Shown: one piece after another, positions 25,552-35,247 of the stretch
How positions within the stretch are numbered: the stretch's first letter is position 1
How the letters are laid out: every line of letters starts with the position of its first letter
NCBI GenBank assembly: GCA_028713285.1
Contig: JAQTOP010000026.1
Location: 1 to 38,617, forward strand
DNA from: Terrimicrobiaceae bacterium
GTDB taxonomy: Bacteria; Verrucomicrobiota; Verrucomicrobiia; Chthoniobacterales; JAATET01
DNA length: 38,617 nucleotides
Direction of reading: 5' to 3'
Translations under genes and position numbers: made by a program
Notes under the pieces: model-generated
The model's database searches: none
What the model saw: the letters and a program-made list of their open reading frames with translations, nothing else
What the model was told of the DNA's origin: nothing

Positions 25552-26820
25552 CTAGGCATTCGCCACGGCGTCGCCGAGTTCGCCCTCGGCCCGGGCGCGG
25601 CGGCCATAGACCCATTCGAAGAGCGGCGTGGCCATGAGCGTCGTGACGATGGCCATCACCACCATCATCGAGAAAAAGGCGGGCAGGATCACGCCGCGCT
25701 GGAGACCAATGTTCAGGATGATGAGTTCCATCAGCCCGCGCGAGTTCATGAGCGTGCCGACGGCGAGCGCCGTGCGATTGTCCTCACCGCTCAGCCGGGC
25801 CGCCGCCCAGCACGCCACGCCCTTGCCCAGGATGGAAGCCGCGAGGAGCGTGGCTGCGACGAGGAAGAGGCTGGGATTGTTGACGAGGGCGAGCTGGGTG
25901 TTCAGCCCGGAGAAGGTGAAAAACATCGGGAGCAAAAAGACCACGGTGAAGGGTTCAATCTGGCGCCGCAGCTCCTGCGCAAAGAATCCGCGCGGCATCG
26001 CGGTGCCGAGGAGAAAGCCGCCGAACACCGCGTGAATGCCGATGGCGTCCATCCCCCATGCTGCGAGGGCAAAAAGCGTGAGCGTGATCGCAAGCAGGGT
26101 CGGGCTGATGCGCTGGTCGCGCTCGGCGATGCGGCCCAGCGGCGCGAGGAGGCGCCGGCCGATGAGGGTGATGAACAGCGCGTAGCCGATGCCACCCGCG
26201 ATGGCTTTGATCGCGATGAACGAATCTCCGCCGAAGGTCGCCAGCACGACGGCGAGCACGCACCATGCGGCGGCGTCGTCAATGGCGCCGGCCGAGAGCG
26301 CCAGCGTGCCGAGGGAGGTGCCGGAGAGCCCGCGCTCGTAAATGATCCGCGCCAGCATGGGGAATGCGGTGATGGCGATGGCCGCGCCGAGGAAGAGGAA
26401 AGCCTCGAAAAAACGCGTCTTCGCGGCAAAGAGATCGGGAGTCTGCAACAGCCAGCCGGCCAGCGCGAAGGCGAGCAGAAATGGCACGGCCATGCCGGCA
26501 AGCGAAACCGCGGCCGCACCCCTGGCCCGGCTGCGAAAGAGCTCGGACTTGAATTCCACGCCTACGAGAAACATGTAGAGCCCGACGCCAAGCTGCGCGC
26601 CGACGAAGAGGGTCTTGAGCGACTCCTTCGGAAAGAGCGCATGCTGGAGGCCGGGAAAAAACAATCCGAAGAGCGACGGCCCGAGCAGCACGCCCGCGAT
26701 CATTTCACCCACGACCTGCGGCTGCCCGATCAGCCGACCGAGCCGCCCCACGACGCGGCAGACGAGCAGGATGACCGCCATTTGCAGAAAAAAAGCGACG
26801 GACAATTGAGCGGGCGTCAT
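25552..26820 (-). CDS. Cation:proton antiporter, CPA2/Kef type
   Basis: 422 residues, about twelve membrane segments. CPA2 markers: QPQVVGEMIAGVLLGPSLFG in the second helix, AIAITAFPMLARI with the functional ALSAGAIDDAAAWCVLA (DD pair), HAVFGGFLLGTAMPR and the C-terminal NSRGLMELIILNIGLQRGVI. It has no C-terminal RCK/TrkA-N domain, unlike KefB and KefC, so it is not expected to be regulated by NAD or glutathione conjugates. It exchanges K+ or Na+ for protons in the inner membrane. The lysozyme-like secreted protein follows after 21 bases. The start MTPAQLSVAFFLQ begins the first helix. Confidence 0.9.
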   Translation of the reverse strand: MTPAQLSVAFFLQMAVILLVCRVVGRLGRLIGQPQVVGEMIAGVLLGPSLFGLFFPGLQHALFPKESLKTLFVGAQLGVGLYMFLVGVEFKSELFRSRARGAAAVSLAGMAVPFLLAFALAGWLLQTPDLFAAKTRFFEAFLFLGAAIAITAFPMLARIIYERGLSGTSLGTLALSAGAIDDAAAWCVLAVVLATFGGDSFIAIKAIAGGIGYALFITLIGRRLLAPLGRIAERDQRISPTLLAITLTLFALAAWGMDAIGIHAVFGGFLLGTAMPRGFFAQELRRQIEPFTVVFLLPMFFTFSGLNTQLALVNNPSLFLVAATLLAASILGKGVACWAAARLSGEDNRTALAVGTLMNSRGLMELIILNIGLQRGVILPAFFSMMVVMAIVTTLMATPLFEWVYGRRARAEGELGDAVANA

Positions 26821-26889: not shown

Positions 26890-26917
26890 TTGACAGGCGG
26901 TGCGGTGCGGTTACGCT
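26890..26917 (+). promoter_or_regulatory. Predicted promoter of the attenuator leader
   Basis: TTGACA (26890-26895), a 16-bp spacer, then TACGCT (26912-26917). A transcript would begin at or just before the leader ATG at 26925, so the leader peptide would be translated from a leaderless or near-leaderless mRNA. No Shine-Dalgarno precedes that ATG, which fits. Confidence 0.5.
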
Positions 26918-26924
26918 TCAGCCA

Positions 26925-27008
26925 ATGTCACTGCACATTTCCATTCTCGGGGTCGCCTCCGTCGTCGTCGCCAAGCGCGACGCCGCGGGTCCGCTTCGTT
27001 TGGAATGA
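26925..27008 (+). CDS. Leader peptide of a transcription attenuator (Val/Ile/Leu-rich)
   Basis: 27 codons from ATG 26925 to TGA 27006-27008. The peptide reads MSLHISILGVASVVVAKRD and continues AAGPLRLE. Ten of 27 residues are Val, Ile or Leu, with three consecutive GTC valine codons at 26961-26969. It is directly followed by nested hairpins and an intrinsic terminator, with the geometry of ilv-type attenuators: the Val codons sit in the protector arm, and the stop codon lies in the loop of the antiterminator hairpin. The peptide itself should have no other role. It is too short to be called by usual gene finders. The evidence is structural; expression has not been shown. Confidence 0.65.
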   Translation: MSLHISILGVASVVVAKRDAAGPLRLE

Positions 27009-27074
27009 TGCCTCACTGACCAATCGAAAACGAAGCAACCCACGGCTGAGAGCGGCCGTGGGATTTTTATTTTC
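26961..27074 (+). promoter_or_regulatory. Predicted attenuator: protector, antiterminator and terminator hairpins
   Basis: Protector (1:2): 26966-26971 pairs with 26977-26982 (CGTCGC/GCGACG). Antiterminator (2:3): GCCGCGGGT (26982-26990) pairs with ACCCACGGC (27038-27046), eight of nine pairs, stacked on a perfect 9-bp helix GCTTCGTTT (26993-27001) / AAACGAAGC (27028-27036). Terminator (3:4): CCCACGGC (27039-27046) with GCCGTGGG (27055-27062) and a T-run. Structures 1:2 / 2:3 and 2:3 / 3:4 exclude each other. A ribosome stalled on the Val codons would free segment 2 and allow read-through; one that reaches the stop at 27006 would cover the 9-bp helix and allow termination. Confidence 0.65.
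27039..27074 (+). terminator. Intrinsic terminator of the attenuator
   Basis: Perfect 8-bp stem CCCACGGC (27039-27046) / GCCGTGGG (27055-27062), 8-nt loop, followed by ATTTTTATTTT. The strongest terminator-like hairpin in the window, and placed 47 bases before a start codon on the same strand, where a plain terminator would make little sense for a following gene unless regulated. Confidence 0.8.
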
Positions 27075-27120
27075 CGCGGATCGCACGAAGGCCGGAGGTT
27101 TCCCAACCAAACCACCGACC

Positions 27121-27906
27121 ATGCAAACCACCGAAGAACCACCCCGAAGAACTTGTGAACTCCAGCCTCCCGGCTGCGCAGCCCCCGCGATCGCCCTCAT
27201 GTCGGCGCGCACGCTTGAGTCGCACGCCGGATTCCTGCTGCCGCTGCTCGATCGCGGCCTCGAAGTGCTCGATGCCGGCTGCGGGCCCGGCACGATCACG
27301 CAAGGCATTGCCGAGCACGTCCTGCCCGGCCGCGTGACGGCCATCGACCGCGATCCGGCGCAGGTGGCCCATGCCACGCGGCTTGCCGAGGGCCGGGAGC
27401 AGACGAATGTCCGATTCACCACCGCCAGCGTTTACGATCTGCCATTCGCAGACGCGTCATTTGACCTTGCCTTCTCGCACGCTCTCTTCGAGCACCTGTC
27501 GGATCCGCGGGGCGCGCTCGCCGAGCTGCGGCGCGTGCTGCGGCCGGGCGGCATGGTCGCGCTGTGCAGTCCCGATTGGGACGCCTTCGAGATGCGCGCC
27601 GCGACGCCCGAAGCCGGGGAGGCGCTCTCGGCCTACCGGGACCTGCAGGAGGAATGCGGCGGCGATCTCCGAGCCGGAGGCCGTCTCGCCGACTGGCTGC
27701 ACGAGAGCGGATTCGGCCTCGTGCAAAAAGGCCGGCGCCTCGAGGAATACGAGTCGTCGATGCGCATCGCGACCTACCTCGCACTGCAACTGGACGCCGC
27801 CGGGAACACCCGCGCCGCGCGCGCGCTGCTCGATTGGTCCACGGAATCCGACGCCGCGCTGCTCGGCTGCTGGACGCATGTGATCGGCGTCAAGTGGAAC
27901 CGCTAG
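27121..27906 (+). CDS. Class I SAM-dependent methyltransferase
   Basis: 261 residues. Rossmann-type methyltransferase: motif I VLDAGCGPG (49-57), then VTAIDRDPAQV, VYDLPFADASFDLAFSH, and ELRRVLRPGGMVALCSPDW, the UbiE/COQ5-like (Methyltransf_11/25) pattern. Substrate unknown. It is the first full gene after the predicted attenuator, 47 bases past its T-run, and so may be controlled by it. The start MQTTEEPPRR at 27121 has no close Shine-Dalgarno; a GGAGG lies about 24 bases upstream, too far to be normal. Cytoplasmic, no membrane segment. It is followed by 232 bases with no gene I can support. Confidence 0.88.
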   Translation: MQTTEEPPRRTCELQPPGCAAPAIALMSARTLESHAGFLLPLLDRGLEVLDAGCGPGTITQGIAEHVLPGRVTAIDRDPAQVAHATRLAEGREQTNVRFTTASVYDLPFADASFDLAFSHALFEHLSDPRGALAELRRVLRPGGMVALCSPDWDAFEMRAATPEAGEALSAYRDLQEECGGDLRAGGRLADWLHESGFGLVQKGRRLEEYESSMRIATYLALQLDAAGNTRAARALLDWSTESDAALLGCWTHVIGVKWNR

Positions 27907-29383: not shown

Positions 29384-30355
29384 TCAGCCGCCGATGGCGG
29401 TCATCACCCGTCCCGGCTGGTAATTGCTGCGGAAGAGATGCTCGGCCGGCTTCCCGGCAAGCGTTTGCAGGAACAACTCCTCCAGCGCATCGAGGTCCAC
29501 GTCGGGACGCAGCGCAGGCAGAAGGTCCGTCTCGAGATGATTGCCCAGGCAGGGCCGCAGCTTGCCATCCGCGGTGAGCCGCATCTTGTTGCAGCGTTCG
29601 CAAAAGTGCAGGTCGGTGATCGCGCTGATGAATCCCACGATCACTCCGCGGCGCCGGAGCCGGTAATATCGCGCCGGGCCGAATCCCAGCGCATCCTCGA
29701 TCGGGTCGAGAATATCTTCCCGCTCCAGATTTCTCCGCACCTCGCCGACCGGCAGGAAATTCTCCTCGCTGAGCATTTCGCTCATACTGACGGGCATGAG
29801 TTCGATGAAGCGGACGACGACATCGAGCGCTCCGGCGAAGTCCAGAATCGACTCGATCTGATCTTCGTTCTTCCCGCGCATGAGGACGGTGTTGAGCTTC
29901 ACCTTGCAGCCGAGCGCCTTCATTTGACGGATGCCGTCGATCACCGGCGCGACGTCTCCGTGCGTGATCGCGCGATAGCGTGCGGGGTCGAGCGCATCGA
30001 GGCTGATATTGAAATTCCGCACGCCCGCGCGGACAAGGCCGTCGCCGAGTCTGGGCAGGAACATGCCATTCGTGGTCATTTGCACCGATTCCACGCCGGG
30101 AAAGGCTGCGAGATCGGCCATGAATTCGACGATCCCGGGGCGCAGCAGGGGCTCGCCGCCGGTCACGCGGAAGCGCTTGAATCCGATGCCGGCCGCCACG
30201 CGCACCACGGCCATCAGCTCAGCGTCCGACAGAATCTCCTTCTGCGGAAGCCAGCCGCGATAATGCTCGGGCATGCAGTAGAGGCAGCGCTCGTTGCAAC
30301 GGTCCGTGACCGACAGCCGCAAGTAATCCACCGTCCTGCCGAGCGGGTCATTCAT
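29384..30355 (-). CDS. moaA: GTP 3',8-cyclase (molybdenum cofactor step 1)
   Basis: 323 residues. A radical-SAM enzyme that turns GTP into 3',8-cyclo-7,8-dihydro-GTP, the first step of molybdopterin synthesis. First [4Fe-4S] cysteines Cys20, Cys24 and Cys27 (CNERCLYC); VTGGEPLL SAM site; second cluster Cys252, Cys255 and Cys269 (CERCNKMRLTADGKLRPCL); the GG at the very C-terminus (AIGG) that inserts into the active site is kept. ATG 30355 starts on the base after the mobA stop (TGA then ATG). It is the last gene of the nitrate operon. MoaC, MoaD, MoaE and MoeA are not in this window. Confidence 0.96.
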   Translation of the reverse strand: MNDPLGRTVDYLRLSVTDRCNERCLYCMPEHYRGWLPQKEILSDAELMAVVRVAAGIGFKRFRVTGGEPLLRPGIVEFMADLAAFPGVESVQMTTNGMFLPRLGDGLVRAGVRNFNISLDALDPARYRAITHGDVAPVIDGIRQMKALGCKVKLNTVLMRGKNEDQIESILDFAGALDVVVRFIELMPVSMSEMLSEENFLPVGEVRRNLEREDILDPIEDALGFGPARYYRLRRRGVIVGFISAITDLHFCERCNKMRLTADGKLRPCLGNHLETDLLPALRPDVDLDALEELFLQTLAGKPAEHLFRSNYQPGRVMTAIGG

Positions 30356-31381: not shown

Positions 31382-33658
31382 TTACAACGCCGCGACGCTC
31401 ACCGCACATGCTTTATAGGCGGGCTGGCGCGAGTGCGGGTCGAAGGCGGGAAAGGTGAGCGTGTTCACCTCGCGGTAGTGCATCGGCACGAAAATCTGCC
31501 CGGGCTGGACGGTCGGGGTGACGAAGGCGGCGGCCCGTATTTTTGCGCGGCGCGAGGCGAGCTGAACAGGGGAGTTCGGCCTGATGCCGAGTCGGCGGGC
31601 GTCCGTCGGATGAATCTCCACGTAGCAATGCGCGGGGTAGAGCTTCCGCAGCACGTCGGATTTTCCCGTTCGCGTATTCGTGTGCCATTGCGAGGAAGTG
31701 CCCCGGCCCGTGAGCAAAATAAAGGGATATTCGTCATCGGGTGGCTCGGGCATCGCACGCGGCTCGTCGAACAAAAAGCGCGCGCGGCCGTCGGGGGTAA
31801 AAAACCTGCCGTCCTCGAAAAGCCGCCGCTCCGTGGAAATCCGGTTCTCGCAATCATGCTCCTGCCCGTGCTCGATGGAGTGGGTTGCGCGGGAAAGAGA
31901 CGCTTCAGGAAGCGGCCACTGGATGCCGCCCTCCGCGTCGATGTGGTGGTAGTCGCGGATGCCGGTCATGTCATTCGGCTGATTACGCGAAACTTCCTTG
32001 AGCAGCGCGAATGCGGCCTCGGGCGAGGTCCATCTGGCAAATTGCGCGGCGCAGCCCCAATAGTGAGCGATGAGCTGGCAAATGTGGAAATCCGACAGCG
32101 CCTGACCCGGCGCGCGGCGGATTTTTTTGATAAGGCCGATGCGGCGTTCGGAGTTGATGAGCGTCCCTTCCTTCTCTCCCCAGCCGGCGGCGGGAAGAAA
32201 AAGATCGGCGCGCTGCGCGGTCTCGGTGGTCGAATAGAGATCCTGCACGACGAGAAAATCGAGCCTCTCGAGGAGCGCGTTGAATTCGCTCTGGTGAATC
32301 CACGAGTGCGAGGAATTCGTCGCGATGACCCACAGGCCTTTGATTTTTCCCTCGGCGATGCCGCGCACGATTTCGTCGTAGGCCATCGAGGGCTCGCGCG
32401 GGATTGCGGATTCGTCGATGCCGAGAATGCCGGCGATCTTCGCGCGGTCCGCGTCGTCGTTCGCGTCGTGCGCGCCGAGCAGGCTCGTGATGTTCGCGAA
32501 GATGCGGGAGCCCATTGCATTGCACTGGCCGGTGATCGAGTTCGCCCCCGTGCCGGGCCGGCCGATGCTGCCGGTCATGAGCGCAAGGTTGATGATCGCC
32601 TGCGCGGTGCGCGTGGATTCGTGGCCCTGGTTCACGCCCATCGTCCACCAAAACGAAACGCGCTTCCCGTCCGCGATGGTCTGCGCGAAATGCCGAAGGC
32701 GCTCTTCGGAAATGCCGGCAGCCGCCGAGACGTGCCTGGGTGAAAACGCGCGCACAAACTCCGCGAACTCCTCGAATCCCGTGGTGTGCGCCTCGATGAA
32801 TTCCCGCCGCACCGCGTCCATCTCGATGAGCAGATGCGCGAGACCGTAGAGCAGCGTGAGATCGGACTTCGGCTGGATCGCGTAGTGCTGCGTCGCGGCC
32901 ATCGCGGTTTCCGTGGCGCGCGGATCGACGACGAGAATCTCGGGCGAGTGCGGGTTGCGCATCACGCGCTGCCACATGATCGGGTGCGCGATGCAGGGAT
33001 TCGAGCCGATGAAAACGAGCACGTCCGACTCCTCGAAATCGGCATACGTGTAGGGCGGCGCGTCGAAGCCGAAGGACTGCTTGTAGGCGACGTGGGCGGT
33101 GGCCATGCATTGCCGCGTGTTGCTGTCGCAATGGATGAAGCCCATGCCGATTTTGAACAGGCAGCCGAGGAACGCCATCTCCTCGGTCGTGATCTGTCCG
33201 GTGCTGAGAAAGGCGACGGACTCGGGGCCGTGTTTCGCCTTGAGGGCCTTGAACTCCTCGCAAAAAAGGACCATCGCGCTTTCCCAATCGCACGACTCCA
33301 GCGGACCGCCCCTGCGGCGGCGCACGAGCGGAGTCGTGCCGCGGTCCGGCGCGGAAAGCGGCGTGAGCGCCTCCCAACCCTTTGGGCACGCCATTCCGAG
33401 GTTCACGGGATAGGTCGCGTCAGCGCTGAGGTTGATTGCCTGACCGTCCTTGAGGTGAACGTTCAGGCCGCAGCCCGTCGAACAGAAACCGCATACCATC
33501 GTCGTCGTGTCGTCGGGCGTCACGCGATCCGGAATCTGCCCGAGCCCGAAGCCGCCGGGGCTGCGCACAAGTTCCTCCGTGAGCGGGCCGGTCCAGGCGC
33601 GGATGGGCGGAATGAGTTCCGCCGGCGTCGAAGGAATCTTGAGCGCAGGAAATTTCAT
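31382..33658 (-). CDS. nasA: Assimilatory nitrate reductase, catalytic molybdopterin subunit
   Basis: 758 residues. Reduces nitrate to nitrite. [4Fe-4S] cysteines Cys56, Cys59, Cys63 and Cys91 ([14 protein letters not shown]...[11 protein letters not shown]); Mo-ligand Cys184 in [54 protein letters not shown] and the C-terminal molydopterin-binding domain [19 protein letters not shown]. No twin-arginine signal or other signal peptide, so it stays in the cytoplasm, as for NasA/NarB types. It lacks the extra C-terminal [2Fe-2S] domain present in Klebsiella NasA. The ATG shares a base with the stop of the DmsB-DmsC fusion (TGATG), so the two are made together. Confidence 0.93.
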
Positions 33659-35247
33659 CAGATTCCGCCGGGCATGTGCGGCGCGCGCACCGCGGTGAAA
33701 AAGGTGTAGCGCTCGAGGATCTGGGACGCCGCCGTTGTCGCGAACGCAAGGGCCGCCCATGCAGGCGCAAACTGCGGTGCACCGAAGATCGCGACGAGCG
33801 AGCCGAGCGTCGCCACGACGAAGAGCGCGATGCGCGAAGGGAACAGCCACGGCAGCAGGGCACTGATCGTGAGGGCGGACAGATGCGTGGCGGCATTCCG
33901 ATCCTTCAGCGCGAGGCGATGGCTTGCATATTCCCAACCGAAGATGATCGCGCGAATTGCGACGGCGATGGCGAGCGCGGCGCGCATGCCTGCGCTTTGA
34001 CCGGCAAGGCCGAGGACGACCGCGGCGGCGGCGGCGCCGAGCACGAGCGTCGCGCCGTAAAACCGGCCGAACGATTCGACGGGCGACCAAAACGTGCGGC
34101 GGGTGTCGATGTAGATCATCGCGGAGGTTAAGACCGCGACGACGCCAAGCAAGGCCGTGGCCCCGGCGAGGCCGGACGCAAGCGGAGAGCCCGGGAAAAG
34201 AAACGCCGCGCCGACCGCAGGAGCGGCGATTGTGGCCATGAGGCTGAAAGCAAGAATCTCGCGGCTCATCCACGAAGTGCGCAGGCCGAGGAAGAATCGC
34301 CAGGCGCCGAGCGGGCGGCCAAGGTGAAAGACGGCGGCGAAGAGGCCTCCGTTGAGGAGCGCGAAGGCGGCGGCGACAAGCGGGAAGCCGGCGTTGTGAA
34401 ATTGGCCAGGGCTTGCGATTCCGGTCGCGAAGGCGGCGGCAAAGAGGCCGGTCGCGGCCTGCGTGGCGACGAGCATGATGAGCAGCGGCCAGTGCGCGTG
34501 CTCGAGCTGGAGCTTGTAGGCGCAGGCCGCATGGGCGGCATCCGGCGGAGCCTTCCGCGAATGATAGACGGTCGTCGGTTTCGTGTAGCTCGAGTCAAAC
34601 GCACCCGGCACGAGGCGCGTGCCCGGCGTCGCGGCGGCGGACACTTCGGCGACATCCACGAGGCGGATCGCGATGGCCTCGTGCGGGCACGCCTGCACGC
34701 AGGCGGGCGCTTCGCCGACGGCGAGCCGGTCGTGGCACATGTCGCATTTGCGCACGATGCCGAGTCGCTCCGAATATTTCGGCACGCCGTAGGGGCACTT
34801 CAACGTGCAGTATTGGCAGCCGATGCATTGATCATCGAGGTGCCGCACGATGCCGGTTTCCGCGTCCTTGTCGTAGGCCATCACGGGACAGCCTTCCAGG
34901 CAGGCGGGATCGACGCAGTGGTGGCAGGCGGTCGTGACCGTCTGCAAATATGGGCCGCCGCCGCGCTCGCCGACGAGCAGCCCGACGTCGCGCCACGTCT
35001 CGTGTTCATCGAGTCCGTTTAACGAATGACACGCGCTCACGCAGGCCTTGCAGCCCGTGCAGGCATCGAGATCGACGGCGAAGGCGTATTGCTGGCCGGG
35101 CGCGGGTCGCGTGAGCGGAATGAGGTCCTCGTAGTAGCGGGCCTGCGCGGGCAGGCCGCCCTCCTCGTGCCGCCGCGCAAACCGCGCGACCGCTGTGAGC
35201 GCGCCCTGCTCGGCGAGCAATCGGTCGATGAGATTCACCTCAGTCAT
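33658..35247 (-). CDS. DmsB-DmsC fusion: four-cluster ferredoxin with membrane anchor
   Basis: 529 residues. The first half (about 55-195) is a DmsB/NrfC-type protein with sixteen cysteines in four groups: Cys63/66/69/73, Cys108/111/116/120, Cys141/144/147/151 and Cys168/171/183/187, enough for four [4Fe-4S] clusters. The second half (about 245-525) is a DmsC-like quinol-binding anchor with about eight membrane segments ([49 protein letters not shown]). In DMSO reductase these are separate subunits; here they are one chain. It would take electrons from the quinol pool and pass them to nitrate reductase at the inner face of the membrane (inference). ATG 35247 overlaps the upstream stop by eight bases. 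Confidence 0.9.

Follow-up and report, generated by a model that had tools for sequence, protein, structure and literature searches.

A short leader peptide gene and a set of competing RNA hairpins lie ahead of a SAM-dependent methyltransferase gene in the 38,617-nucleotide stretch of DNA analysed here (the window, contig 49 of a 3.5 Mb source genome in 157 contigs). The arrangement is very probably a ribosome-mediated transcription attenuator of the ilv/leu type, which would control the methyltransferase in response to Val/Ile(/Leu) shortage. At the level of sequence comparison the attenuator is confirmed as real and conserved. Its anatomy, conservation, codon bias, fold geometry and the single grouping in the methyltransferase tree are observed; from these we infer attenuation itself and the inducing amino acid. 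The attenuator sits between a divergent Na+/H+ exchanger gene (25552-26820, minus strand) and the methyltransferase gene. On the plus strand a TTGACA box, a weak -10 box, the leader ORF, segment 2, segment 3, the terminator and the methyltransferase gene follow each other in this order:

26890-26917, plus strand: promoter read from the sequence, with TTGACA at 26890-26895, a 16-nt spacer and a weak -10 box TACGCT at 26912-26917
26925-27008, plus strand: leader peptide ORF MSLHISILGVASVVVAKRDAAGPLRLE with its stop codon, 27 codons; related leaders at 12 other loci
26955-26967, plus strand: segment 1, the 5' side of the protector in the minimum-energy fold, able to sequester segment 2
26961-26969, plus strand: GTC-GTC-GTC, the final Val codons ahead of the switch point
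26982-26990, plus strand: segment 2, GCCGCGGGT, pairing with the upstream protector or with 27038-27046
26993-27036, plus strand: stacked antiterminator helix of 9 bp (26993-27001 with 27028-27036), with the stop codon in the loop
27038-27046, plus strand: segment 3, ACCCACGGC, common to antiterminator and terminator
27039-27073, plus strand: strong intrinsic terminator, CCCACGGC...GCCGTGGG in a stem at 27039-27062, then ATTTTTATTTT
27121-27906, plus strand: Methyltransf_11 gene, class I SAM-dependent, 261 aa, the regulated gene

The leader described in the initial annotation, 27 codons with ten Ile, Leu or Val residues and GTC-GTC-GTC, is present in the sequence. Its promoter was not listed by a consensus promoter scan because the -10 box is weak; relatives carry TTGAC/TTGC-type boxes at a comparable distance from the leader start. 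Transcription is expected to start within 1-2 bases of the leader ATG, so translation of the leader probably begins on an mRNA with no, or almost no, 5' untranslated region. The protector, the antiterminator with its stacked 9-bp helix and the strong terminator that had been proposed were recovered by sequence and folding. In the minimum-energy fold of the free leader, 26955-26958 pair with 26987-26990 and enclose an inner hairpin. The antiterminator (2:3) and the intrinsic terminator (3:4) are mutually exclusive, and both pairings are kept in relatives, in agreement with the classical 1:2, 2:3, 3:4 competition suggested at the outset. The leader stop codon (27006-27008) indeed lies inside the antiterminator loop; the stacked helix is an extension found in the genus only.

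In the proposed mechanism, RNA polymerase would start just ahead of the leader ORF. With ample charged Val (and Ile/Leu) tRNA, the ribosome would reach the stop codon and cover segment 2, segments 3 and 4 would form the terminator, and the methyltransferase would stay untranscribed. A ribosome stalled in the Val/Ile/Leu codons would leave segment 2 free to pair with nascent segment 3, and transcription would proceed. If the leader were not translated, the protector would hold segment 2 and transcription would end.

Folding analyses fit the geometry of an ilv/leu-type attenuator, in which a stall at the regulating codons frees segment 2 and a ribosome at the stop codon does not. The antiterminator piece, that is, the RNA left free by a stalled ribosome with segment 4 not yet made, has a folding energy of -27.3 kcal/mol (z = -4.0 relative to dinucleotide-shuffled sequences), and the whole free leader adopts the protector and terminator fold at -57.7 kcal/mol (z = -2.9). 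Ribosome-position states were folded for 12 methyltransferase leaders, one ilvB leader and one leuA leader; counting from the first base of the codon in the A site, the 3' edge of the ribosome was placed 12 nt downstream. When the A site lies within the V/I/L run, the antiterminator is available in the folded leaders before segment 4 is made, mostly with a probability of 0.6-1.0, and it falls away within a few codons past the last V/I/L codon. In the window leader this probability is 0.75 with GTC-GTC-GTC in the A site, and the antiterminator is gone within 4 codons after it. With the ribosome at the stop codon the terminator is certain and the antiterminator absent, so that ribosome position selects the fold in these states, as had been anticipated. 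Because the terminator usually wins at equilibrium once segment 4 is present, the decision in this model must be kinetic, as in classical attenuators.

The codon content of the leaders points to the signal. Examples are SILVAVSAVVAKRD from the genus, SIMISVVSKAVVGRGAVA and VKISIVSLAVVGPGAVAI from family f7, and VTVSILAKVSVLGDAVAF from f8. Among 11 distinct leaders, Val, Ile and Leu make up 86 of 168 residues before the switch point (51%; 50 of these residues are Val), a count slightly favoured by the switch point itself being set at a V/I/L codon. After the switch point they make up 28 of 114 residues (25%), and their share in the enzymes is 19%. Taking one leader per lineage gives 38 V/I/L residues out of 75 (binomial p ~5e-10 versus the 19% in the enzymes). 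Substitutions between leaders fall largely within this class, for instance from V to I and from L to I when G033 is compared with G100, an interchange that is expected if the codon class is selected. The description as a Val-codon attenuator is thus right in that Val codons are present and too narrow in that the leader is rich in Val, Ile and Leu, not purely in Val.

The unit extends well beyond the window. When 57 relatives were searched with the protein, methyltransferase orthologs turned up at 73, 66 and 61% identity in the genus and 46-48% in families f7 and f12, likewise preceded by leader, switch and terminator. A contig scan found the same elements in three named metagenome-assembled genomes (MAGs; L032, L033 and L034); named relatives fall within Verrucomicrobiota, a Spartobacteria MAG among them, and since the L033 and L034 leaders are identical to those of the G100 and G105 loci, each was counted once. 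A covariance model run over 213 genomes of the order found the loci of the genus, f7 and f12 again, together with two new ones from f8. Leader, switch, terminator and methyltransferase thus occur together at 13 loci (G000-G003, G033, G041, G047, G100, G105, G020, G026, G034 and L032) in families f1, f7, f12 and f8 and in a further Verrucomicrobiota MAG; within the order this spans four families or more. Codons and the order of promoter, leader, terminator and gene are conserved in these relatives, as the initial annotation would lead one to expect. No switch accompanies the methyltransferase homologs of family f5, and upstream of homologs from other phyla a scan found no terminator. The window copy is the sole strong switch match in its genome; weak matches to the model inspected in the genus were plain terminators, not further copies of the switch.

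Conservation across families makes a chance origin untenable. In 10 sequences, terminator pairs are kept in 98.9% of cells and the antiterminator pairs of segments 2 and 3 in 94.6%. With pairing segments that hardly vary, there is little covariation: one double change per helix, neither well clear of shuffles. L032 changes segments 2, 3 and 4 together, to GCTGTGG, CCCACAGC and GTTGTGGG. In a maximum-likelihood tree of 29 methyltransferases, which has no fixed root and a long branch carrying the two f8 rows, a single branch splits leader-bearing from leaderless proteins (support 92/97), corresponding to one change of state, and none of 500 shuffles gave a number as low. The leader-switch-methyltransferase unit therefore probably arose once and stayed with the methyltransferase in several families.

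This distribution bears on the suggestion that the attenuator was left behind, or accidentally captured, when an ilv operon moved, with the methyltransferase as a bystander. Leaders of related appearance do stand ahead of ilvB and leuA in other members of the phylum. Yet the attenuator has stayed with the same gene at 13 loci from four or more families, even though the flanking genes change completely, and the suggestion is contradicted by the leader-bearing methyltransferases forming one group in the tree; we regard it as scarcely credible. On sequence grounds, the other option of the initial annotation, that the gene belongs to branched-chain amino acid physiology, is favoured.

The structure of the methyltransferase, predicted at high confidence (pLDDT 91.8), has a class I fold; its closest folds are 3mgg and methyltransferases of small molecules, among them RebM, AtmM, SpnF and MitM. 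Searches of NCBIfam, of PDB sequences and of folds returned methyltransferases that are generic or act on small molecules, and nothing more specific. An additional RNA-binding domain is absent from the enzyme, no RNA methyltransferase family is matched at cut-off, and against the model for RlmA, an rRNA methyltransferase, its score stays far under the cut-off. A chain named SgvM was found neither among the PDB sequence matches to 1e-4 nor among the best 50 folds of a library that may lack SgvM. These models suggest that the methyltransferase probably acts on a small molecule.

A leader peptide with attenuation ahead of a methyltransferase is also a known resistance design, and an antibiotic-stalled ribosome in the leader might switch on an rRNA-modifying enzyme, as for tlrB or erm. 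The tlrB gene (yxjB) of Bacillus subtilis is described as using tylosin-dependent stalling and transcription attenuation (PMC6851288). The window attenuator resembles tlrB in combining a leader peptide and transcription attenuation with a SAM-dependent methyltransferase; tylosin as the signal and methylation of 23S rRNA, which characterize tlrB, are not indicated for it. The enzyme features above speak against an antibiotic response, as do leaders in which V, I and L interchange around no fixed stalling motif, the comparable architecture ahead of ilvB and leuA in the phylum, and the amino acid genes among several of the neighbours. We therefore consider this explanation very unlikely, and return to an attenuator sensing branched-chain amino acids.

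What recurs beside the methyltransferase are genes for homoserine, threonine and methionine, not ilv genes, none of which is adjacent to it. Three of the four genus members have hom behind the methyltransferase in the same orientation; thrC comes after it in two of them and probably in the third. Upstream, metF is found directly adjacent in G033 and ~2-4 kb away in G041, G047 and G105, and metY-metA directly adjacent in L032; loci with hom-thrC, metF or metY-metA beside the methyltransferase are L171, L172, L173, L176, L174 and L032. No neighbour of these types was seen in G020, G026, G034 and G100, and the source genome of the window has hom on a different contig. The pattern was noticed post hoc. 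It is compatible with a link between the methyltransferase and amino acid metabolism, and we infer, as a suggestion, a substrate near homoserine/methionine metabolism.

As isoleucine is made from threonine, the ancestral target might instead have been hom-thrC behind the methyltransferase, with the attenuator serving threonine/isoleucine synthesis and the methyltransferase carried along. The gene order in the genus speaks for this; however, the leaders contain no Thr run, no hom follows in f7, f8, f12 or L032, and the window genome has its hom elsewhere, which makes such a history highly improbable. Under control of the methyltransferase itself, the enzyme could catalyse an undescribed branched-chain or aspartate-family step induced by Val/Ile shortage, such as the methylation of an alpha-keto acid. 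Adding a methyl group to 2-ketobutyrate would give the valine precursor, and to 2-ketovalerate the isoleucine precursor. The hom, thrC, metF, metY and metA neighbours would suit an enzyme of this kind. This assignment is an unlikely one; no sequence match to known keto-acid methyltransferases was found.

The enterobacterial ilv attenuators are of the same classical kind as the one proposed here. Leader-peptide attenuators of ilvB(NC) are described in Corynebacterium, Mycobacterium and Streptomyces (PMC1262725), with a three-hairpin model for ilvBNC of C. glutamicum (PMC11857589). The window attenuator shares with these systems a short leader ORF, rich in Val, Ile and Leu, that overlaps alternative hairpins and a terminator with a U tract, and differs in controlling a methyltransferase, in its phylum and in its probably leaderless start. 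The LEU element and leuA leaders (PMC1262725) similarly place a leader ORF ahead of the regulated, there branched-chain, gene, but codons, structure and gene are all different. With a methyltransferase as its target, the window attenuator stands outside the narrow class of branched-chain biosynthesis (ilv/leu) attenuators. A branched-chain biosynthesis gene is the usual target of such attenuators, not a mechanistic requirement. No Rfam family matches the attenuator at gathering or relaxed thresholds, and a literature search found no report of a leader of this type or of attenuators in Verrucomicrobiota. The mechanism would be classical; as a target the methyltransferase is new, and Verrucomicrobiota are apparently a new phylum for such attenuators. 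By these sequence tests the attenuator appears to tie the methyltransferase to branched-chain amino acid supply, giving an uncharacterised family a physiological handle: a conserved switch indicates when the cell wants the enzyme, so a directed search for the substrate becomes possible.

Branched-chain leader-peptide attenuators are also added for Verrucomicrobiota more widely. In a search of 387 genomes of the phylum, strong switch matches end at the order and weaker ones lie beyond. A leader MLKSTSQVVMLGVVAVGDIVGAC precedes ilvB at L200, an Ile/Val/Leu leader precedes ilvB of an ilvB-ilvC-ilvD run (L183, G469), and a Leu-rich leader precedes leuA (L182, G500), each with a terminator. Their layout is that of the methyltransferase attenuator, with a segment 3 of CCCAC(G/T)GC type reused in the terminator at L200 and L182 and CCCTCGGC at L183; they differ in their canonical biosynthesis targets, and they are too diverged for homology to be claimed on sequence alone. 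The ilvB, ilvC and ilvD genes of the methyltransferase-bearing genomes have no such leader. In the same order, leuA is preceded by a pure-Leu leader at L206, L207, L208 and L210 and by MVKAACTSLLALRLGLLPSRLTLLLP in G002; the pure-Leu leaders resemble the actinobacterial LEU element (PMC1262725). Leader ORFs ahead of branched-chain genes are thus a habit in this lineage, with codons that follow the gene. Weak matches at L184, L185, L187, L190, L193, L195 and L198 turned out to be plain terminators, one of them beside a tRNA.

Elsewhere in the window, a radical-SAM-like (MoaA-like) ORF (29384-30355) and a molybdopterin oxidoreductase gene (31382-34273), both on the minus strand, lie downstream of a DegT aminotransferase gene. 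Similar layouts of leader ORF, segment 2 and terminator were also seen at L122, L125, L126, L127 and L128 (around G057:C43:27878, G005:C10:61609, G032:C36:41144, G071:C51:38096 and G086:C25:12378), with unrelated leaders that are not V/I/L-rich. The next gene there encodes a ~60-aa protein that has a core in common between loci and matches nothing in Pfam; behind it comes an EamA exporter (L122, L127) or a LexA-like repressor (L125). Segments 2, 3 and 4 of these loci vary in step, CCCACTGC occurring with GCAGTGG and CCCACCGC with GCGGTGG.
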